From a virus: 31,102 bases of DNA. Positions within the stretch are counted from its first letter, which is position 1, and the number at the start of each line of letters is the position of its first letter. The stretch lies in IMG/VR virus record IMGVR_UViG_3300042691_012312, positions 1 through 31,102 of that record. One strand, given 5' to 3'. Shown one piece after another: positions 2,398 to 30,127 of this stretch. The notes under the pieces were generated by a model, which made no database searches, was not told where the DNA came from, and saw only the letters and a list, made by a program, of their open reading frames with translations. Position numbers and translations under genes: made by a program.

Positions 2398-3842
2398 CAC
2401 ACCACCATCGACCGCAGCACGATGTTGGACGTGTTCAGGATCATGTACAAGTAGACGATGACGGTGGATCCGTCCTTGTACTCGACGTCCCACGACGTGT
2501 CGCCGATGAGCGCCGCGCCCTGGAGGTTCGGCATGGTCGAGTAGCCGTCCTGCGTGTCGGTGAGCAGGTCGTAGCGGAACCAGCGGCCGGTGCCGTCCTT
2601 GTGGCAGTACAAGTAGCGGTCGCTGTCGTAGACCCACTTCGTGCCGGTCGTGAACGTCTCCGTGGCGGGGACGTAGGTGCGGCCGCTCTGCCAGGCGTTG
2701 AGGGCGATGTCGTAGCGGTCGAGGACCGCTCCCGCTGCGCCGCGGAAGGAGTAGATGTAGCGCCCGTTGATGATGGCGCTCTCGTCGTTCCACGCCGTGT
2801 CGGGGACGCTGTGGATCCAGTGTCCCGACATGCCCGCGCCGGGGGCGGCGGCACGGGCGGCGGTCGGCGTCAGCGTCGTCCAGGTCCCGGCCGAGATGCT
2901 GTAACGGAACAGGGTGACGGCGCCGGACCCCAAGTAGTAGATGAAGTCGTCGTTGCCCTCGATGCTGTAGACGCTGGTGGCGTCCGGGTTGGTCGCCCAC
3001 GCAGCCGACACGGTCAGCACCGTGCCCGTGTTGCTGGCGATCGTGCGGATCTGACCTGCGCCGGTCCCGGACACGATGCGGACCTGGCTGTTGGTCCACT
3101 GGTTGGTGGTCCACGCCTTGGCCGAGTTGGTCAGCGTGGTCGCACCGCCTGCGGTGGCGGTGCCGGTGGCGAACTGCTTGTAGTCGCTGTCGATCCAGCT
3201 CGGGCAGTGGACGAGCTTGCTGTCGGTGGTGATCGCCGCAGCCGGTGCGATGCCGTCGGTTGCGCCCGTCTCGGCGCTGGACCACGTGTTGAGCGCGTAG
3301 TCGTAGAACCGGAACACGTTGGCCGTGGTGGTGCCCGCCGAGGCGATGGCGTTGAGGATGTACCAGCGCGGCGTCAACAGCCGGAACGTGGTGGACGCCG
3401 AGAACGCCGAGCCCTGCGTAGCAACCGTGATCACAGAGTTCGTGCCCGTGGTGTTGGACGCGATCGGCAGGGTCACGCCCGCGTTCGGGCCGCCGGTGAT
3501 ATGGATGCTGTAGCCGCGCAGGTCGCGAGCCAGCGTCAGGCCGGTGGTGATGGTCGACGTGGTGCCCGCAGTGGCGGTGCCGGACGGGCCGACCGCCGTC
3601 GCGGTGCCGCACGCGCCTGCGCCGAACGCGCCGCCGAGGCCCGCCGCCGGAACCTGCGTCCAGCCGTCGGTGCTCGGGTTGTACAGGAAGGCGTTGGCGG
3701 CCGAGGTCACCAACAGCTGCTGCTGGCGGAAGTGTCGGGACGACACGACGAACCACCCCGCGGACGAGGTAGCGGGCGCAGCGCCGACCATCTCCCATCG
3801 GGGGAGGTCGAGGATGGCCCGGTTGCCGTTGGTGGTAGGCAT
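2397..3842 (-). CDS. Large beta-rich virion protein, kelch/beta-propeller-like tail fibre candidate
   Basis: A 481-residue protein with repeated segments of the type F-x-Y-D-x-A-L-N-x-W (FYDYALNTWSS, RYDIALNAWQSG) and RYSISAGTWTTL. These resemble kelch or beta-propeller blades. Gly/Thr-rich inserts such as GTATAGTTSTITTGLT separate them. There is no signal peptide, membrane span or enzyme motif. A good ribosome site (AGGAGA) precedes ATG 3842. Its place between the lysis genes and the late-operon end, beside other fibre-like genes, supports a receptor-facing tail or baseplate protein. The fold call is from motif pattern only. Confidence 0.88.
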   Translation of the reverse strand: MPTTNGNRAILDLPRWEMVGAAPATSSAGWFVVSSRHFRQQQLLVTSAANAFLYNPSTDGWTQVPAAGLGGAFGAGACGTATAVGPSGTATAGTTSTITTGLTLARDLRGYSIHITGGPNAGVTLPIASNTTGTNSVITVATQGSAFSASTTFRLLTPRWYILNAIASAGTTTANVFRFYDYALNTWSSAETGATDGIAPAAAITTDSKLVHCPSWIDSDYKQFATGTATAGGATTLTNSAKAWTTNQWTNSQVRIVSGTGAGQIRTIASNTGTVLTVSAAWATNPDATSVYSIEGNDDFIYYLGSGAVTLFRYSISAGTWTTLTPTAARAAAPGAGMSGHWIHSVPDTAWNDESAIINGRYIYSFRGAAGAVLDRYDIALNAWQSGRTYVPATETFTTGTKWVYDSDRYLYCHKDGTGRWFRYDLLTDTQDGYSTMPNLQGAALIGDTSWDVEYKDGSTVIVYLYMILNTSNIVLRSMVV

Positions 3843-4740: not shown

Positions 4741-4938
4741 TCAGCCCTCCAGGCTGTCGGGGGTCCACGGGGTGACACGGCGGCGCACCAGCTCGGCGGC
4801 GACAGCGATCCACGCCGCGGCGGCGAGCACCAGCGCGGCGACCAGATCGGGGTCGACGCCGGCGAACAGCAGCAGGCCGAGCGTGGCGGCCAGCGCCGTG
4901 TTCAGCAGGCCGACGATGCGGACAGGCTCAGAGGTCAT
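4741..4938 (-). CDS. Holin-like two-span membrane protein
   Basis: A 65-residue protein with two hydrophobic segments (residues about 8-25 and 29-47: VGLLNTALAATLGLLLFAGV and LVAALVLAAAAWIAVAAELV) and a basic then acidic tail RRRVTPWTPDSLEG. Size, topology and position directly after the endolysin and another small membrane protein fit a holin that lets the amidase reach the wall. The ATG overlaps the upstream stop (ATGA). Holins have no conserved catalytic residues, so the call rests on topology and context. Confidence 0.72.
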   Translation of the reverse strand: MTSEPVRIVGLLNTALAATLGLLLFAGVDPDLVAALVLAAAAWIAVAAELVRRRVTPWTPDSLEG

Positions 4939-5150
4939 CGGTCGTCCTCCTCGTGCGCGTGCCAGCGCAGATGGTCGGTCAGGGTGTCGTGGATCTGCTC
5001 GGTGCGATGATCGAGCCGCTCGAGCAGCCCGAAGCTGGCAGCGTGCTGCGCCGAGTTCTCGGCCCGTAGCCGCCTGAACCCTGCCCACGCCGGGATGCCA
5101 GCGGTGATGAGCGCCACCAGGACGGTGACGACGGCGCTGGTGCCGTCCAC
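4935..5150 (-). CDS. Holin-like or holin-partner one-span membrane protein
   Basis: A 71-residue protein that starts with GTG at 5150. One N-terminal membrane span (residues 5-23, SAVVTVLVALITAGIPAWAG) is followed by a charged helix with FGLLERLDHRTEQIHDTLTD, probably coiled coil. This layout is common for the second membrane protein of actinophage lysis cassettes. It lies one base after the amidase and overlaps the next holin-like gene (ATGA). It could be the holin itself, an antiholin, or a membrane anchor. Confidence 0.7.
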   Translation of the reverse strand: MDGTSAVVTVLVALITAGIPAWAGFRRLRAENSAQHAASFGLLERLDHRTEQIHDTLTDHLRWHAHEEDDR

Positions 5151-5151
5151 G

Positions 5152-5898
5152 TCACAGAACCCCGGGACGCACGACCGGGCCGACGGCCATGTCGAAGCTG
5201 GCGGGATCCATCATCACGACCGGGAGCTGGTTCACGTCCCGCCAGAACGCAACCTTGTCCCAGGCGGCGATGCGGAACACGCCGCCCGGTGCGGACAGGA
5301 ACCAGTGGTCCCTTGCCTGGATGTAGACGAGCTCCATGCCGGTGTCCTCGCTGTCGGGGGCGGGCGGGGGCGGAGGCGGTGCGACCGTGCCGAGCATCTC
5401 GGCGACCGTGTCGGCGTGGACCTGGGCGACCCGGTCGAGGTTGTCCCACATCCAATCGGCGTCAGCCTTGTTCGTGGCGAAGCCGTGCTCCATCAGCACC
5501 CGGAACGGGGCCGACGTGCGCTTCCACGCGTAGTAGTTGCGGAGGCCGGCGGAGTAGTTGTCGGGGCGGAACCCGCCCGGCCAACCCGCCTTCGCGTACC
5601 GGGCCTTCCACGCCTGCGCCCAACGCTCGTTGCCGGAGCCGGCCGGGTAGCCGACCGACGCGCCTCGAGCAGCGGCGTTCACGCTGCCGTCCTGGTGCAG
5701 AGCGATGAACACGTCGCACGCCGGGATCGGATCGTCGGCGCCGATGACGATGCACCGGTGGCCGAGCTGCTCGACACGGGAGGCGATGCGCGGTGCGAGC
5801 TGCCGGGCGAACTCTTGCTCGGTGCCACGGTGGCCGCTGGTGCCGGTGGCGCCCTTGGTGCGAGGAACGTGACCCATCTGCACGACGACGGTCGCCAC
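5152..5898 (-). CDS. Endolysin, N-acetylmuramoyl-L-alanine amidase (Amidase_3 type)
   Basis: A 248-residue protein. Residues 1-170 match the zinc amidase fold: H10 in VVVQMGH, a glutamate at about position 27 or 29 (GTEQEF), H68 in IALHQDGS as the third ligand, and E137 in VLMEHGFATN as the catalytic acid. The enzyme would cut the amide bond between muramic acid and L-alanine. A proline-rich linker PPPPPPAP (about 174-181) leads to a 60-residue C-terminal part (MELVYIQARDHWFLSAPG) that may bind the cell wall. It starts with GTG at 5898. There is no signal peptide, so release depends on the adjacent holin-like genes. Confidence 0.9.
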   Translation of the reverse strand: MATVVVQMGHVPRTKGATGTSGHRGTEQEFARQLAPRIASRVEQLGHRCIVIGADDPIPACDVFIALHQDGSVNAAARGASVGYPAGSGNERWAQAWKARYAKAGWPGGFRPDNYSAGLRNYYAWKRTSAPFRVLMEHGFATNKADADWMWDNLDRVAQVHADTVAEMLGTVAPPPPPPAPDSEDTGMELVYIQARDHWFLSAPGGVFRIAAWDKVAFWRDVNQLPVVMMDPASFDMAVGPVVRPGVL

Positions 5899-17193: not shown

Positions 17194-18627
17194 TCAGTAG
17201 GCGAACACGGGAGCGGGCGCGACGGGTACCTGTTGGACGCCCCACGCGGCCAAGGTGGCAGCCATCAGCGGCGACACGTCGACGACGGCGTCACGCTGCG
17301 CCCACACCCACGCATCACCGACCAGGCGGCGGCGGGCTGCGCCCACAGCGGCCGACAGGTCGGCGTAACCGGAGTGACGGACCTGCCTGTCCGTCACAAG
17401 ATCGAAGAACAGGCCGCACGCCCTCGTCAGGTCGCGGGTTGCGACCAACTCGAGCGGGAACGCCACCAACGGCACCAACGTGCCGGCAGCGCCCGCGGCG
17501 TCGATGAACCAGCGTGGCGACCACCGCTCATGCAGTTCCGCCATGCGCCCAGGCAGCCAACGCACCCCGTCGCGCACGTCAACCTGCTCCACATGGACCA
17601 GGCCGTCAGGACGAACCCATGCGGCGACGATCGCCGACCGGGTCCGATCCGGCGCGACCTGCACGCCGAACGCCACCGGCGCGCTGATCGACGCACCAGG
17701 GTCCCGGCACGCCTCCCAATCGTCGACCGACAGCGCAAGATCCGCCGACGTCTCCGTGGGCTCATCACCGACCCCGAGCCGTTCACGCAGGAACTCGCCG
17801 AGCGGCAACGCGTCGAACTCGGCGGCGATGAACTCCTCGGGGATACGAATGCCCATCGCTGGGTTCGCAGTGGCCCAGCGGTCACGATCCGCCGCCCACG
17901 CACGCAGCTGCTCGCTGTCCAGCCCCGTCGGCGGGGCTGCCACCGACCAGGACACGAACGCCAAGCGGCCCGGATCGCCGGACATCGCACGGCGCCGCAC
18001 CGAATGCCACTGCGAACTGCTGGCCAGCGGCGCCGACCCGAAGTAGTTCACCTGCGGATTGGGTCGCGCCGCCAAGGTCGGCAACACCGCACCCATCATC
18101 GACGCGTCGAGGATCATGCACTCGTCAAGGATCACCCGGTCGCCAGTGAACCCACGCCCAGAGCCCGTTGACCGGGCGAGCCAGCGGATCCGCTGACCCG
18201 ACCTCAGCTCGATCGACGTCTCTTCGTTCGACTGGCGCACCTGCCTGACCCGACGATCCAGGTCCGGCGTGTTCTCGATCAAGAACCGGAGCCGCCGGAA
18301 CGCCTCGCGCGCCGTGTTGAACTTGTGCGCCGAGTGCAGGATCAGCTGTTCGCCGAACAGGAACAGGCCGGCCAGCTCGACCGCCTCGATGATCCCGCCC
18401 TTGCCGTTCTGCCGCTGGCACTCCACGCCCGTCTCGAAGGCGGCCCAGCGCCCATCGGCGCGCTCGCCGAGCATCACTTCGAGGCACAGCCGCTGCCACG
18501 GATCCAGCACCAGGCCCGCAGTCTCAGCCAGCTCCACCGCCTCGGCGGCGGCGCTGCTGACCGCCGGCGGCGCCACCATCACCCGAGGCACCTGCGATCC
18601 GATCCGCACGTCGACGGGTGAGCTCAT
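17194..18627 (-). CDS. Terminase large subunit
   Basis: A 477-residue DNA-packaging motor. The N-terminus carries the actinophage pattern GSQVPR (10-15) and AVELAETAGLVLDPWQ. A deviant Walker A lies at VECQRQNGKGG (about 68-78), and Walker B at RVILDEC (164-170). The coupling segment NYFGSAP follows. C-terminal nuclease-domain acidic residues are plausible in GVQVAPDRTRSAI and FIDAAGAAG. ATG 18627 was chosen because AGGAGGT stands 11 bases upstream and the GSQxPR element must be included. It overlaps the small terminase gene by 104 bases. ATP hydrolysis drives DNA through the portal. Confidence 0.95.
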   Translation of the reverse strand: MSSPVDVRIGSQVPRVMVAPPAVSSAAAEAVELAETAGLVLDPWQRLCLEVMLGERADGRWAAFETGVECQRQNGKGGIIEAVELAGLFLFGEQLILHSAHKFNTAREAFRRLRFLIENTPDLDRRVRQVRQSNEETSIELRSGQRIRWLARSTGSGRGFTGDRVILDECMILDASMMGAVLPTLAARPNPQVNYFGSAPLASSSQWHSVRRRAMSGDPGRLAFVSWSVAAPPTGLDSEQLRAWAADRDRWATANPAMGIRIPEEFIAAEFDALPLGEFLRERLGVGDEPTETSADLALSVDDWEACRDPGASISAPVAFGVQVAPDRTRSAIVAAWVRPDGLVHVEQVDVRDGVRWLPGRMAELHERWSPRWFIDAAGAAGTLVPLVAFPLELVATRDLTRACGLFFDLVTDRQVRHSGYADLSAAVGAARRRLVGDAWVWAQRDAVVDVSPLMAATLAAWGVQQVPVAPAPVFAY

Positions 18628-18859
18628 CGACCGGGTCGACCTCCTGCGGCGCTGCCTGCTCGAGCGCAGCGATCTCGGCCAGCACCGCCTGCAACTGGCG
18701 AGCCAGCGCAGCAACCTGCGGCGGGTCCGCCGATGCCAGCGTCGACGCCAACGTCGCCCGCAGCGCACGCAGCGTCGCGAGCCGATCGCCGGCCTCAGCG
18801 ACCTCGACGAGCCCCGCCGGCTGCTTCCGAGCACGAGGCAACGCCCACCGCCCTTGCAT
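18524..18859 (-). CDS. Terminase small subunit
   Basis: A 111-residue basic protein with an N-terminal RARKQPAG segment, a long central helix (LRATLASTLASADPPQVAAL through ARQLQAVLAEIAAL) and a C-terminal VDELTRRRADRIAG like that of many actinophage small terminases. It lies directly upstream of, and overlaps, the large subunit. No clear ribosome site precedes ATG 18859, and it is the only Met in the frame. It would recognise the packaging site, perhaps in the noncoding gap just upstream. Confidence 0.82.
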   Translation of the reverse strand: MQGRWALPRARKQPAGLVEVAEAGDRLATLRALRATLASTLASADPPQVAALARQLQAVLAEIAALEQAAPQEVDPVDELTRRRADRIAGASGDGGAAGGQQRRRRGGGAG

Positions 18860-19022
18860 AACGATGCGTACTGGAGAGAGAACGAAGGATAGACGGGGCT
18901 TCCCGGTCGGAGCTGCCTGCTAGAAAAGGCCTAGTCAGAGGCCCGGAACGGGTGTGGCGTCGCGTCGCGGTCGGCCGCTGGTGTGCATGGTCATGCAGGC
19001 TGGATGCATAGACCGGGCTCGT
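18860..19022. other. Noncoding packaging-region candidate (cos/pac) between HNH and small terminase
   Basis: This 163-bp gap is the largest noncoding stretch inside the late operon. It holds an imperfect palindrome with CTAG arms (about 18914-18943), a perfect TGCATG-GT-CATGCA palindrome at 18984-18997 and an ATGCAT at 19004-19009. The flanks are an HNH endonuclease and the small terminase. In HK97-like phages the HNH protein acts with terminase in cos cutting and cos is nearby. I cannot fix the cut site. Confidence 0.4.
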
Positions 19023-20145: not shown

Positions 20146-20294
20146 CGGCGGGCGGTCTCCTTGAGCTGCTGGCGGATGGCGGCGATGGCGGCGAACGCTC
20201 GTGCTCGTCGGTCGGCTTCGCGTTCAGTGGCTGCGTCCCGTTGTGCTCGGCGGCGGGCGAGCTCGTCGTCGAGTGCGTGGTCGGTGTCGGTCAT
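20142..20294 (-). CDS. Small charged helical protein, unknown
   Basis: A 50-residue protein, MTDTDHALDDELARRRAQRD onward, ending IRQQLKETARR. It appears to be one long amphipathic helix, acidic at the front and basic behind. It overlaps the initiator-like gene upstream (ATGA) and the zinc-finger gene downstream by four bases, which supports it as a real coupled gene despite its size. Function unknown. Confidence 0.72.
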   Translation of the reverse strand: MTDTDHALDDELARRRAQRDAATEREADRRARAFAAIAAIRQQLKETARR

Positions 20295-20815
20295 CGGTCC
20301 TCCGGTGCGACGAGTCGGAGTGCGGCTTCCTGGGTTCGGGTCGGGTCGGGCGGCGGGACGTAGTCGGTGCGGGCCGCGCGCGAGTTAGTGGAGAGTTCTA
20401 TTGGAGAGTTAGGGCGCGATGGTCGCGCTAGGTCTGGCGCGGTGGTCGCGCCACCCTGGCGCGATGGTCGCGCTACCCCTGGCGCGGTGGTCGCGCTAGC
20501 AGCGGCCTCCCCTAGCGCGGTGATCGCGCCAGCAGGAAGGGTCGCGGTGTACCGGTTGACGGCCCGATCGGAGCGCTTCACGGTGATCCAGCCGCCGTCC
20601 TCGAGCTGCCGCAGGGCGGTCAGAACGGTGTTCCTCGACAGCCCGGATTCGGCTTCGAGGGTGCTGATCGACGGGAAGCACGACCCGCCCCGCTCGTTCA
20701 TGTGGAGCGACAGCGTGAGGGCGACGTGACGGGCCGACGGCGGCAGCTCGGAGTCGCAGATCGCCGAGCGCCACGAGAACAGCGGCTTCAGCTCGCGCAG
20801 CTTGTCGGCGGTCAC
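20291..20815 (-). CDS. Winged-helix replication initiator-like protein
   Basis: A 174-residue protein starting with GTG at 20815 (GTGA overlap). Residues 1-90 form a winged helix: helices in FSWRSAICDSELPPSARHVA and LSLHMNERGG, recognition part PSISTLEAESGLSRNTVLTA, and wing LEDGGWITVKRSDRAVNRYT. This HTH_36-like layout is used by phage and plasmid replication initiators and by some repressors. Residues about 95-135 are low complexity (ATTAPGVARPSRQGG) because the DNA there carries five palindromic iterons. As with lambda O, the origin probably lies inside its initiator gene. A regulator binding sites inside its own gene is the main alternative. Confidence 0.8.
   Translation of the reverse strand: MTADKLRELKPLFSWRSAICDSELPPSARHVALTLSLHMNERGGSCFPSISTLEAESGLSRNTVLTALRQLEDGGWITVKRSDRAVNRYTATLPAGAITALGEAAASATTAPGVARPSRQGGATTAPDLARPSRPNSPIELSTNSRAARTDYVPPPDPTRTQEAALRLVAPEDR
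20383..20412. other. AT-rich patch beside the iterons, possible unwinding element
   Basis: About 18 of 30 bases are A or T in an otherwise strongly GC-rich genome. It contains the direct repeats GGAGAGTT (twice) and GTTAG (twice). It abuts the first iteron, as the AT-rich unwinding segment does in iteron-type origins. Confidence 0.45.
20412..20531. repeat. Five palindromic iterons, probable replication origin
   Basis: Five 19-bp sites follow the consensus TGGCGCG-RTGGT-CGCGCYA at 20412-20430, 20435-20453, 20457-20475, 20480-20498 and 20513-20531. Site 2 (TGGCGCGGTGGTCGCGCCA) has perfect inverted arms. Start-to-start spacings of 23, 22, 23 and 33 bp correspond to about 2, 2, 2 and 3 helix turns, so all sites face the same side. 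They lie inside the winged-helix gene, next to an AT-rich patch. Confidence 0.85.
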
Positions 20816-25128: not shown

Positions 25129-25649
25129 GCGGCCACCTGCCGGGCGTGCAGGCCCCTCCTGCGCAGCCAGCGGCAGGCCCGGCAGTGCCTTCCATCGGGC
25201 TTGCCCGGACGACGGACCAGCACCGTGTTCTCCGGGGTGAACTCGTGCCCCCACTTGCAGTGGGTCTTCCGGGCGTTCTTGGCCAGCAGCGACTCACCTC
25301 GGGCCTTGTTCTCGGCCAACGTCACCAGCTCAAGGTGGTCCGGGTTGCAGCAGTGACGGGTTCGGCACAGGTGATCGAGCACGAGATCGGGCGGGATCGG
25401 TCCGACGAGCGCCGTCCACGCCATCCGATGAACGAGCACGGTCCGCTTGTTGCCGTGGTGGAGCCGCCCGACGCCGATCTGCCCGTACCCGCTGCTGATC
25501 GCTCCCTGCCAGAGCCAGCAGCCCGACTCGTCGAACCGCACCCGTCGAAACAGCCGATCGAGCAGCGACTCGGCGTCGGCCTCGTCGGCGACGTACTGGG
25601 TGAGGTCGACGACCGCATCGAAGGGTGATCGGCGAGACCCTCCGCTCAT
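25125..25649 (-). CDS. HNH endonuclease (HNH_3-type, homing-like)
   Basis: A 174-residue protein. The core is GCWLWQGAISSGYGQIGV, VHRMAWTALVGPIPPDLVLD-HLC, then CCNPDHLELVTLAENKARGE, the HNH_3 pattern with D-H, N-P-D-H-L. The C-terminal THCKWGHEFTPENTVLVRRP and CRAC form a zinc part. Freestanding HNH_3 genes often act as homing nucleases between phage genomes. It is inserted between RecT and VRR-NUC yet keeps ATGA overlaps on both sides, so it may be a settled resident. Confidence 0.87.
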   Translation of the reverse strand: MSGGSRRSPFDAVVDLTQYVADEADAESLLDRLFRRVRFDESGCWLWQGAISSGYGQIGVGRLHHGNKRTVLVHRMAWTALVGPIPPDLVLDHLCRTRHCCNPDHLELVTLAENKARGESLLAKNARKTHCKWGHEFTPENTVLVRRPGKPDGRHCRACRWLRRRGLHARQVAA

Positions 25650-26536
25650 GCCAGCTCCTCCGGCGCCTGGAGCCAGTCGAGGACGGCGGCGGCGAGGTCC
25701 TGGCGGCTGGCGATGGCCGTGAGGTTCGCCACCGGCTCCCCGGCGTGCTCGGACGCCCAGCGGATCACGTCGCCGTGCCCGACCCCGGCGAGCTTCTGGG
25801 CGCTCTTGAGGTCGGCGACGGTGATCGTGTCGCCGAGCATCGCCGTCTGCTCGGGCTCGTCGACCGGCTCGACGATCTCGGCGTCGATGATCTCGCCCGT
25901 GTCGACGTCGGCGGTGGGGACGGGCCGGGGAGCGGCGGCGGGGGGAGCGGCGTCCCCCGGCCCGTCGATCTGGACCGGGGCGAGCACCTCGGTCGGGTCC
26001 ATCACGTCGTCGTCAGCGGCGAGGCCGACGAGGACGCTCGGGGCGAAGAAGCGGATGGCGTTCGTGGTGGCCCTGGCGACCAACATGTTCCGGGGCGTCT
26101 TCTGCCAGTTCGACTTGCCGGTCAGGCCCTGCCGCTTCGCCTCGTCGAGCGTGAACGTCTCCCGGCCCAGCTCGGAGCCGTTGCGGAGCACGATCACGGT
26201 GGCCGCCTGGTCGGACAGGTCGACGACCCGCACCTCGTAGCCGGCCCTCTCGGCGAGCGCCCGCTGCATGGTGGCGTCCACGACCGGTCGACCGTCCACG
26301 AAGCTCACGGTCTGGATGGCGGTCAGCGTGTCGATGCCACGACTGCGAGCCCACTGGTCGGCGAGCAGCACCGCGCCCGGGTTCTCCCGGTAGCTGCGCG
26401 GCAGGGCGTCCTTGGCTCGGGCGATGGCCTGCGCTCGGCGCAGCTCCACCTCCAGCAGCTCCATCGCGCCGCCGGACGGTGCCGGTTCGGCCACGGCCGG
26501 GGTGGCGTGGCGACTGACGAGCACGGGCTTGTTCAT
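25646..26536 (-). CDS. recT: RecT-like single-strand annealing recombinase
   Basis: A 296-residue protein with RecT features: AIARAKDALPRSYRENPGAV, LTAIQTVSFVDGRPVVDATM, TFTLDEAKRQGLTGKSNWQK and TPRNMLVARATTNAIRFFAP-SVLVGL. It binds single strands made by the exonuclease and anneals them. The C-terminal third is acidic and low in conserved motif (DGPGDAAPPAAAPRPVPTAD) with a final helical part that may bind partners. ATG 26536 overlaps the exonuclease stop (ATGA). The exo-RecT order matches many phages. Confidence 0.92.
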   Translation of the reverse strand: MNKPVLVSRHATPAVAEPAPSGGAMELLEVELRRAQAIARAKDALPRSYRENPGAVLLADQWARSRGIDTLTAIQTVSFVDGRPVVDATMQRALAERAGYEVRVVDLSDQAATVIVLRNGSELGRETFTLDEAKRQGLTGKSNWQKTPRNMLVARATTNAIRFFAPSVLVGLAADDDVMDPTEVLAPVQIDGPGDAAPPAAAPRPVPTADVDTGEIIDAEIVEPVDEPEQTAMLGDTITVADLKSAQKLAGVGHGDVIRWASEHAGEPVANLTAIASRQDLAAAVLDWLQAPEELA

Positions 26537-27525
26537 CGGGTCTCTCCCTTGGGTGCGGTCACGGTGAGGCGGCGAGCGCCGAGCGGGCGGCGTGCGGCCT
26601 CGTACAGGTCCGGCGCTTCGGCCTTCGCCCTGTCCCGGTCGAGGACGAGGCGGCCGAGGTCGGGGCGGGCGGCGAGCAGCTCGGCCTCCGCTTCGGCGGT
26701 GACCGTGAGCGCCGGCTTCGACAGCGACACGCGCCAGCCGTCGTCGGCGACGCCCTTGGTGGCGGCGGCGAGCCGGTCCCGGATGCGGGCCTCGATCAGG
26801 TCCCGCTCATCTGTCACGGCGCGCACGGCGGCCTTGATCTCGTCGAGGCGGCGCAGGTCGTCGACCATGTCGGACAGGTCGACCGTGTCAGCATCGACGG
26901 CCACGGCGTGGACGGCCTTCACGACGTCCAGCGCCGAGGCGACGTCCGGCTCGGGCAGCGTCTCGGCCTGGACGTGCTCCCACAGCTCATCGGCCAGGAC
27001 GACGAGGTCGTCGCACTCGAAGGCGTCGAACGTGACCCAGCGCAGCCGCAGCGCGACCAGCTCGTCGGCATCGTCGTCGATCTCGGCGGCGGCGACGAGG
27101 GTGCGGGACATGCCCGTCACCCACATCTGCCAGGTCACCTGCGGCATCCAGTAGTCCCATGCGGGCCGGACGTTCGCGCCGTGCGTCTTGATCTCGAGCC
27201 CGGCGGCGACGTCGTCCATCGTCGCCTCAGCCAGCGGCGAGAGGAACCCGTCGACCGTGGCCCGGTGGTGCGAGTAGTCGGGGTGCTGGCACCATGCCTG
27301 CTCGCCGACGACGTGCAGGCCGGTGATGGTGGCGACGCTGTCGGCGATGACCTGCTCCCAGCGGAGGCCGCGGCGCATCACGTCGGTCGTCTCGGCCGGC
27401 GGCGTCAGGCCGAGCTTGTCGGCGACGACCCCGTAGCGGCCGCCGTAGCGCCCGGAGCGCGCCCGGGCGATGTCGGAGGCGGTGATGCCTGCCTTGCGCC
27501 AGGCGAGCCAGTCGGTGTCGGTCAC
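26533..27525 (-). CDS. YqaJ-type phage exonuclease
   Basis: A 330-residue protein from GTG 27525. The YqaJ/lambda-exo core is clear: GITASDIARARSGR, RRGLRWEQVIADSV with E57, RATVDGFL with D92, GLEIKTHG with E111 and K113, and MPQVTWQMWVTG with Q129. This 5'-3' exonuclease would make 3' single strands for RecT. Residues about 200-330 form a helical tail (VDDLRRLDEIKAAVRAVTDE). Paired with the RecT-like gene it gives a complete annealing recombination module. Confidence 0.93.
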   Translation of the reverse strand: MTDTDWLAWRKAGITASDIARARSGRYGGRYGVVADKLGLTPPAETTDVMRRGLRWEQVIADSVATITGLHVVGEQAWCQHPDYSHHRATVDGFLSPLAEATMDDVAAGLEIKTHGANVRPAWDYWMPQVTWQMWVTGMSRTLVAAAEIDDDADELVALRLRWVTFDAFECDDLVVLADELWEHVQAETLPEPDVASALDVVKAVHAVAVDADTVDLSDMVDDLRRLDEIKAAVRAVTDERDLIEARIRDRLAAATKGVADDGWRVSLSKPALTVTAEAEAELLAARPDLGRLVLDRDRAKAEAPDLYEAARRPLGARRLTVTAPKGETR

Positions 27526-27782
27526 GCCCGGCCCTCCCGGTCGACGACTCGGAGCAGGACGTGGTGGCGGGCGGCCATCGCGTCGACCATCACGGCCTGG
27601 ACGTCCTCAGGCGTCCACGCCACGTCGATCACGGACCACTCCCGGGACTGCCGGTCCAGGCCCTCGACGGTCCACCGAGGACCCAGAGGCGGCAGTTGCG
27701 GCCGGTTGCGGACCCGGCCGAACCACAGCGCCGGGACGACCAGCGCGACGACGATGACAAGCGCCTCGATGACCGGGCTCAT
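27522..27782 (-). CDS. N-terminally anchored membrane protein, unknown
   Basis: An 86-residue protein with an N-terminal span [20 protein letters not shown] and a cytoplasmic part [40 protein letters not shown]. It starts ATG 27782, overlapping the pentapeptide gene (ATGA). It is placed between the pentapeptide protein and the exonuclease. Function unknown. Confidence 0.76.
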
Positions 27783-28354
27783 GCTGCGTCCCCGACGACG
27801 GGCACGAGATGCGACTCGATGCGCTCCAGCCCGGCAAGGGCGTCGGCGATCAGGGCGTCACGGTCAGCGCGGTCCCGGTACTCGGGTGGCCCGCCAGGCT
27901 GGGTCAGGTTTGCTCGGCACTCGTCGGCGGTGCCTGACCAGCACCCGGCCCAGATCCGCAGCGTGCCGTCGATGACGGCGCCGAGCATCAGATGCCCGAG
28001 GCCCACCTGGCCCGCTGACCAGGCGGCGACGCCGTACGCATCGGCGAGGTTCGCACGGGCGAGGTTCGCATCGGCGAGGTTCGCACGGGCGAGGTCCGCA
28101 CCGGCGAGGTACGCACGGGTGAGGTTCGCACCGGCGAGGTCCGCACCGGTGAGGTCCGCACGGGTGAGGTTCGCACCGGCGAGGTTCGCACCGGCGAGGT
28201 CCGCACGGGCGAGGTCCGCACCGGCGAGGTACGCACCGGCGAGGTTCGCACCGGCGAGGTACGCACCGGCGAGGTCCGCATGTTGGCCGCCGGGCTCCCC
28301 GTCGAGCCACAGTCGGTGCAGTCGCAGAACATCAGCCAGGTCATCGGGCGCCAT
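27779..28354 (-). CDS. Pentapeptide-repeat protein
   Basis: About 191 residues. After an N-terminal helix ([16 protein letters not shown]), some sixteen A(D/N/Y)L(A/T)x pentapeptides run from about residue 26 to 106 ([15 protein letters not shown]). These fold as a right-handed quadrilateral beta-helix resembling DNA in shape and charge. The C-terminal 85 residues ([20 protein letters not shown]) form a separate domain. Known relatives such as MfpA and Qnr protect or inhibit gyrase; some phage versions act against host functions. ATG 28354 is taken; GTG 28357 just before it also overlaps the upstream stop. It is among the first early genes. Confidence 0.92.
28044..28283. repeat. Sixteen tandem 15-bp units inside the pentapeptide gene
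   Basis: The DNA reads as sixteen direct 15-bp copies close to GCGAGGTTCGCACCG, one for each pentapeptide, with variation mainly at three positions. Near-perfect DNA identity, beyond what the protein requires, indicates recent expansion or ongoing slippage. Confidence 0.92.
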
Positions 28355-28572
28355 CACGCACCCCCGACGACGGGCAGGCAGGCGAGCAGGTCGGAGGCGA
28401 TGGCAGCGGCGATGCCGTGCGCCTGGTCGGCGGGGACGACGATGCGGATCGTCTCGTTGCCGATGCGGACCTCGAGGACGGAGTCGATGGAGGTGAGCCG
28501 GTCGACCTTGGCGGAGGCGCCGAGCGCCTTCGTCTGGAGGGCGTCGATGATGATCGTGGTGCGGGCCATCAC
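28354..28572 (-). CDS. Small alpha/beta protein, unknown
   Basis: A 72-residue protein beginning at GTG 28572 (or ATG 28569): [60 protein letters not shown]. Strand-helix-strand with no cysteines; possibly a small fold for RNA or peptide binding. The same GTGATGGC junction is used at its start and at the next gene's start. Second gene of the early operon; unknown. Confidence 0.76.
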
Positions 28573-29188: not shown

Positions 29189-30127
29189 ATGGTCGATCAC
29201 ATGGCGACGCATACCCTCTACCGCCACTTGAGTTTGCCGACGGTGGAGGTGGCAGAGGTGCAGACGCCGGCACACACGGCGGCGCGGGCATACATCGAGG
29301 ACCGGACCCGGCGGGGTGAGATCGTCCGAACCACGGCCCGTCAGCAACGGATCATCCTGCGGCGGTTCGCAGACCGGCTCGGAGAGCGTGACCCGTCGAG
29401 CATCACGCGACGTGACATCGACTCGCACATGCGTGACCGGGACGGCTTGAGGCCATCCTCGCGAAGAGTTGAGCTCGGGATCCTGAACGCCTTCTGCGTC
29501 TGGCTGGTCCGCAACGGCAAGCTACGGCGGAACCCGATGGTGGACGTGGCCCGGCCGAAGAAGCGGCGCACCGTTCCGGCGGCGTTGCCAGCCGATGCCG
29601 TGGCGCGGCTGCTCGAGGTGTCGGAGGCCGACGCACGCCTACACGCCATGGTCTGGTCGATGCTAGGCCTCGGGTTGCGACGCGCCGAGGTGGCGACGCT
29701 GCACATCGACGACTGGGACCGGCGCTCCGGCACGGTGCGGGTGGTCGGCAAGGGCGGCCACGAACGCGTCCTGCCGGTCATCGAGCAGGTGGACCGGGCG
29801 TGGCGTCGCTACTTGGCCGACGAGCCGGCGGCGTCGGGGCCGCTGTTCCGGTCGCGGAAGCCGCCGCATGACGGGCTGTCGATCGGCACGGTCGGGTGGC
29901 TGGTCGGTCAGTCGTTGCGGCAGGCCGGGATCAAGGTCCACGCTTGGGATCGGGTGTGTCCGCACGCGTTGCGCCACACGGCGCTGTCGGACGTGATGGA
30001 CAGCTGCGGCGATCTGCGGGTGGTGATGGAGATGGGCGGCCACCGGGACCTGTCGACGGCCAGCATCTACCAGCGCACGGCCACGGTCGCCCAGCTGCGG
30101 CAGGCGATGAGCGTCCGCCCGTACTGA
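29189..30127 (+). CDS. int: Tyrosine integrase
   Basis: A 312-residue tyrosine recombinase. An N-terminal SAM-like core-binding domain (about 28-115) is followed by the catalytic domain: R164 in LGLRRAEV, K188 in GKGGHERV, H259-x2-R262 in PHALRHTAL, H285 in GGHRDLST and nucleophile Y294 in ASIYQR. It lacks a large extra arm-binding domain, with only 27 or so residues before the core. ATG 29189 is taken; ATG 29201 (MATHTLY) is possible. It follows the repressor in one transcript and ends before a strong hairpin terminator. It would insert the genome at a host site; the attachment site was not identified. Confidence 0.94.
   Translation: MVDHMATHTLYRHLSLPTVEVAEVQTPAHTAARAYIEDRTRRGEIVRTTARQQRIILRRFADRLGERDPSSITRRDIDSHMRDRDGLRPSSRRVELGILNAFCVWLVRNGKLRRNPMVDVARPKKRRTVPAALPADAVARLLEVSEADARLHAMVWSMLGLGLRRAEVATLHIDDWDRRSGTVRVVGKGGHERVLPVIEQVDRAWRRYLADEPAASGPLFRSRKPPHDGLSIGTVGWLVGQSLRQAGIKVHAWDRVCPHALRHTALSDVMDSCGDLRVVMEMGGHRDLSTASIYQRTATVAQLRQAMSVRPY

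Follow-up and report, generated by a model that had tools for sequence, protein, structure and literature searches.

In phage lambda, the replication origin lies inside the initiator gene, where inverted-repeat iterons bind dimers of the O protein and are accompanied by an A+T tract; there are four iterons in lambda and six in Stx phages (PMC5043065, PMC7466680). In-gene repeats bound by the initiator, together with an A+T-rich DNA-unwinding element, have been described for gene 38/oriL of Bacillus phage SPP1 (PMC6316719), and mycobacterial prophages have been proposed to have an origin inside repA (PMC7157519). Here, we analyzed the whole of IMGVR_UViG_3300042691_012312, a 31,102-base uncultivated virus record from IMG/VR (referred to below as the window), in which the segment 20382-20531 is very probably a lambda-O-like replication origin located within the gene of its own putative initiator. 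The in-gene arrangement as such is already known, and what varies here is the short protein, the missing partner gene and the modular comparison with relatives.

Gene content and layout of the locus

The record (71% G+C, 29% A+T) carries the gene set of a temperate tailed phage, including terminase, portal, head and tail genes, an endolysin, RecT, RecE/YqaJ, HNH and a tyrosine integrase. No near-identical sequence was found in a search of phage records. The closest counterparts of the terminase large subunit, at no more than 41% identity, are those of Arthrobacter, Rhodococcus and Gordonia phages, from which we infer that the host is probably an actinobacterium. A pentapeptide-repeat protein (PF00805, 2.8e-24) is encoded at 27779-28357, upstream of the RecE/RecT pair. 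The features relevant to the analysis are as follows.

17194..18834, minus strand: terminase large subunit, marking a tailed phage
20291..20815, minus strand: initiator gene, 174 amino acids, GTG start, with HTH_36 and PHROG matches and AlphaFold model m245bb452724e
20382..20412, minus strand: putative DNA-unwinding element, 60% A+T over 30 bp, with the 13-bp-spaced repeat AACTCTCCA...AACTCTCCA
20412..20430, unstranded: iteron 1, GGGCGCGATGGTCGCGCTA, adjoining the A+T patch
20435..20453, unstranded: iteron 2, TGGCGCGGTGGTCGCGCCA, with perfect outer arms
20457..20475, unstranded: iteron 3, TGGCGCGATGGTCGCGCTA, a palindromic 19-mer
20480..20498, unstranded: iteron 4, TGGCGCGGTGGTCGCGCTA, a palindromic 19-mer
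20513..20531, unstranded: iteron 5, TAGCGCGGTGATCGCGCCA, with a GTGAT center
25646..27525, minus strand: RecT-like annealing protein and RecE/YqaJ-like exonuclease, in a leftward block shared with the initiator gene and outside the origin
29189..30127, plus strand: tyrosine integrase, marking a temperate phage

An earlier note on this DNA had described five 19-bp sites inside a winged-helix gene, and both their positions and their start-to-start spacing (23, 22, 23 and 33 bp) were confirmed. The arms that it gave, TGGCGCG/CGCGCCA around RTGGT, are perfect only in site 2; sites 1, 3, 4 and 5 deviate at an outer base, and the center of site 5 is GTGAT. All five copies of the 15-bp core GCGCGRYSRYCGCGC in the 31,102-base record lie within the array, and the observed iteron count was reached by 0 of 100 dinucleotide shuffles. 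When IMG/VR was scanned with a pattern for tandem iteron copies, the sole match (L017) was an Ala-rich repeat of a virion gene that fitted the pattern by chance.

The A+T patch beside the iterons, put at about 60% in the same note, was recovered at that level, though it is short: only 3 of 31,073 windows along the record reach the value of the 30-bp patch, and widening it to 40 bp lowers the content to 45%. The motif AACTCTMCA has two copies in the record, both within the patch. In the cumulative GC skew, the minimum at 18,862 is a local one only, and no clear switch marks the iterons.

In comparison with gene O/ori-lambda, the window likewise has its putative origin in the initiator gene, inverted-repeat iterons 20 to 24 bp apart (with a last gap of 33 bp) and A+T-rich DNA on the 3' side in gene orientation, here over 30 bp only; we computed spacings of 20, 24 and 23 bp for lambda, with the A+T tract on the same side. 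However, lambda O has 299 amino acids versus 174 in the window initiator and reaches its loader via a C-terminal domain, whereas the window protein has no such recognized domain, and lambda has a P gene, whereas the window record has neither a recognized P nor another loader. The iteron sequences are unrelated, and the window patch is shorter and less extreme. The published description of SPP1 gene 38/oriL also resembles the window layout, although SPP1 has loader (gp39) and helicase (gp40) genes of its own, and counterparts of neither were found in the window record.

The protein is an HTH_36 winged helix (PF13730, E 1.4e-13, Pfam search). In PHROG searches, residues 14-148 matched phrog_270 "replication initiation protein" (4.6e-12), and phrog_678/391 "replication initiation O-like" matched as well. 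Wherever a matched family has a stated function, it is that of a phage replication, primosomal or helicase-loader protein. The family match combined with in-gene iterons, as in U2, phi2LM21 and L023, places the window protein among the HTH_36 phage replication initiators (phrog_270 and kin). It falls outside the lambda O family proper, as Pfam Phage_rep_O was absent among its matches at E<=0.01 and the C-terminal domain and adjacent P/loader or helicase gene of that family were not found here. The AlphaFold model shows a confident winged helix at residues about 11-93, a disordered linker encoded over the iterons (about 110-151) and, with low confidence, a short C-terminal helix (159-166); neither this model nor the Pfam search revealed a recognized C-terminal domain. 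A PDB fold search with the predicted structure retrieved generic winged helices, with MarR/ArsR-type regulators as the best matches, while a PDB sequence search gave zero matches.

Selection on the repeat DNA

Translation passes through the 15-bp core in two different frames, with ARPSR encoded at sites 1 and 3 and ATTAP-like peptides at sites 2, 4 and 5, so that protein repeats cannot explain the iterons. To evaluate the constraint on the DNA, the codons of the gene were resampled with the protein kept unchanged (300 synonymous-codon shuffles). The repeat score was 122, against a shuffle mean of 16 and a maximum of 58, and the out-of-frame repeat score was 61, against a mean of 2.3 and a maximum of 18; none of the 300 shuffles was as high in either case. 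The palindrome score (5, shuffle mean 1.1) was matched by 1 of 300. Among 235 gene windows in the record, the one containing the iterons ranks top in out-of-frame score, with the rest far below. Given the use of two frames across the iterons and a degree of repetition above that of every synonymous shuffle, selection acts on the DNA of the iterons and not on the peptide, in agreement with the earlier attribution of the low-complexity segment to DNA constraint.

Lambda O, used as a positive control, was flagged by the same test (28 versus 0.8, 0/200), as were the genes of Pseudomonas phage U2 (0/200), phi2LM21, L005, L007, L016 and L023. The BgVeeders33 relative scored weakly, and those of PVA1 and KS9 did so partly.

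Relatives, partner genes and the A+T motif

The wing was found at 48 to 64% identity in five relatives, comprising four IMG/VR phages and one metagenome-assembled contig. Four of them (L005, L007, L012 and L016) have in-gene repeats just past the wing, with sequences unlike those of the window: CCCACCGGGAGCCGGTGGG in L005, CTGAACGACGTTCAG in L007 and GTCACCA..TGGTGAT in L012, while iterons of the CCCACCGG type, with the same half-site, are common to L005 and L016. The order of wing, iterons and, often, an A+T repeat is thus kept while the iteron sequence changes completely. In L006, the wing is kept, and a search for in-gene iterons found none; however, the linker is missing there too. Loss of the palindromes from a retained protein segment, which according to the earlier note would refute an origin, is therefore not what L006 shows, and the iterons persist in four of the five relatives. 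The two relatives closest to each other, L005 and L016 (62% across the wing region), share a half-site and have an almost identical recognition helix, ESTVREH, which suggests that wing and iteron may change together, although the cases are very few and common descent could explain the same pattern.

Some of these relatives present additional domains. In L007 (1013-1834), a single protein combines the HTH_36 wing, in-gene palindromic iterons and DnaA_N (PF11638, 1.2e-11), and in L012 (2480-3241) the HTH_36 wing is joined to Phg_2220_C (2.8e-13), with iterons at 21-bp spacing and apparent further copies in opposite orientation. Both, from uncultivated phages, resemble the window in wing, iterons and their position, but the window protein ends in neither DnaA_N nor Phg_2220_C; the L005 initiator, like that of the window, is devoid of a recognized C-terminal domain. 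A long Ala/Trp repeat of the AAEAAWAARAAW type characterizes a protein encoded near the L005 initiator gene (4833-5564). The contig L016 (JACTVF010000357.1) was binned into a Methanoregulaceae archaeon genome and carries a phage initiator and a tyrosine integrase, the latter related to that of the window (30% over 164 amino acids); it is likely misbinned phage DNA.

The absence of a visible helicase or loader gene, already remarked in the earlier note, holds for the record searched, which may be incomplete: DnaB_C and IstB/DnaC-type domains were searched in six frames of its whole length and none was found, and those neighboring ORFs of the initiator that were searched gave zero replication family matches. 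The records of L005, L012, L023, L006, phi2LM21 and Rivra also gave no DnaB_C or DnaC-type match, so that the window is not exceptional within a group where this absence is common. Among more distant relatives, DnaB adjoins the initiator gene in KS9 and BgVeeders33, and replication protein P adjoins it in Y8A. Pseudomonas phage vB_Pae_U2 (HTH_36, phrog_270/1032) is similar to the window in its wing (45% identity over 58 residues) and in its in-gene palindromic iterons (GGTGCAACGGTTGCACC, 22-bp spacing), but its protein continues for about 130 more residues past the iterons, and the next genes encode a DnaC-like loader and DnaB, neither of which was found in the window.

The A+T motif is common to the window and L007 even though their iterons differ. 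The patch TAACTCTCCAATAGAACTCTCCA aligns with TAACTCTACAAAGAACTCTACA of L007 with a score of 29 versus a mean of 13, and 0 of 300 shuffles were as good; the motif is partly present in L016 and present in L023, while a clearly elevated A+T tract was looked for in L005 and L012 and was absent. A strict pattern derived from the window and L007 matched three contigs across IMG/VR, namely L007's own record, L022 and L023. L023, retrieved by the motif alone, contains an HTH_36 gene (3.7e-13) with palindromes GGTGG..CCACC directly before the motif, which may be considered a small prospective success for the strict pattern. The L022 match is a 12-bp microsatellite; at 2858-3184, a gene without an assigned function contains a long 12-bp tandem repeat that encodes SSLE/SSLR/SSLG units. 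A relaxed pattern gave 21 matches; winged-helix genes among them were limited to L023 and L024 (the record that contains L007), the other matches inspected being unrelated, e.g., KPAKEPAK peptide repeats. The relaxed motif is without predictive value, and the strict one has some, on few cases (three matches).

Alternative readings and proposed mechanism

The lambda-O/ori-like layout proposed in the earlier note is supported by the constraint at the DNA level, the retention of iterons in relatives, the behavior of lambda O in the same test, the side on which the A+T patch lies and the replication genes next to distant relatives. The winged-helix protein might instead be a transcriptional (auto)regulator and the palindromes its operators, located within the gene that encodes it, as the predicted fold is nearest to MarR/ArsR regulators, palindromic sites suit dimers and autoregulation is frequent among initiators. 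However, the five sites lie 280-400 bp within the gene and not at a promoter, the family matches are replication proteins, and distant relatives sit in replication gene clusters; in addition, the extreme A+T patch that adjoins the sites has a motif that recurs between phages, and we consider this explanation improbable.

A protein origin of the repeats, that is, a duplicated low-complexity Ala/Thr/Pro/Arg linker with palindromes arising from GC-rich codons, would fit the 45-bp (15-amino-acid) two-unit pattern and a record with 71% G+C, but it is very unlikely given the two reading frames, the failure of all 300 synonymous shuffles to reach the repeat score and the recurrence of palindromic repeats in relatives with different linker peptides. 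There is also very little chance that the palindromes work at the RNA level, through hairpins that attenuate the early transcript or affect mRNA stability. A 5- to 7-bp stem with a 3- to 5-nucleotide loop could fold at each site on either strand, yet the regular spacing of ~22 to 23 bp and the neighboring A+T repeat would be left unexplained, and the same arrangement in lambda is an O-binding origin.

In the favored reading, the segment is the replication origin. Dimers of the 174-amino-acid winged-helix protein would bind the five palindromic iterons, which follow each other at intervals of about two helical turns (about three before the last one), and a compact nucleoprotein complex would be formed. 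Strain imposed by this complex would melt the neighboring 30-bp A+T patch, which contains the 13-bp repeats; a DnaB-type helicase, presumably supplied by the host, would be loaded there, and the low-complexity linker would be a by-product of iteron maintenance. DnaB of Escherichia coli is bound by domain I of DnaA (PMC5448010), so DnaA_N would be a natural helicase-recruiting part, and actinobacteria have DciA instead of DnaC (PMC5109545). It is plausible that the short initiator recruits the host helicase directly, as the earlier note suggested, or through DciA or DnaA; in an actinobacterial host the contact would be made through DciA or directly.

As a more tentative extension, which we regard as possible but rather doubtful, these genes might represent a modular origin cassette. 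Wing and iterons would change together, the short A+T repeat AACTCTMCAAWAGAACTCTMCA would persist across otherwise unlike phages as a specific signal for unwinding or loading, and the C-terminal part that recruits helicase would be exchanged (DnaA_N, Phg_2220_C and others) or dispensed with, the 174-amino-acid protein being a minimal initiator that depends on the host helicase alone.

For an uncultivated, probably actinobacterial phage, the locus resolves a candidate replication origin to the base. The combination of an HTH_36 wing, out-of-frame palindromic repeats and an A+T repeat provides a recognition rule by which candidate phage origins can be found from sequence. An A+T motif common to phages with unrelated iterons would suggest a sequence-specific role for the unwinding element and, should the minimal protein need no partners other than those of the host, it would offer a small model of helicase recruitment by a phage initiator in bacteria that rely on DciA instead of DnaC.
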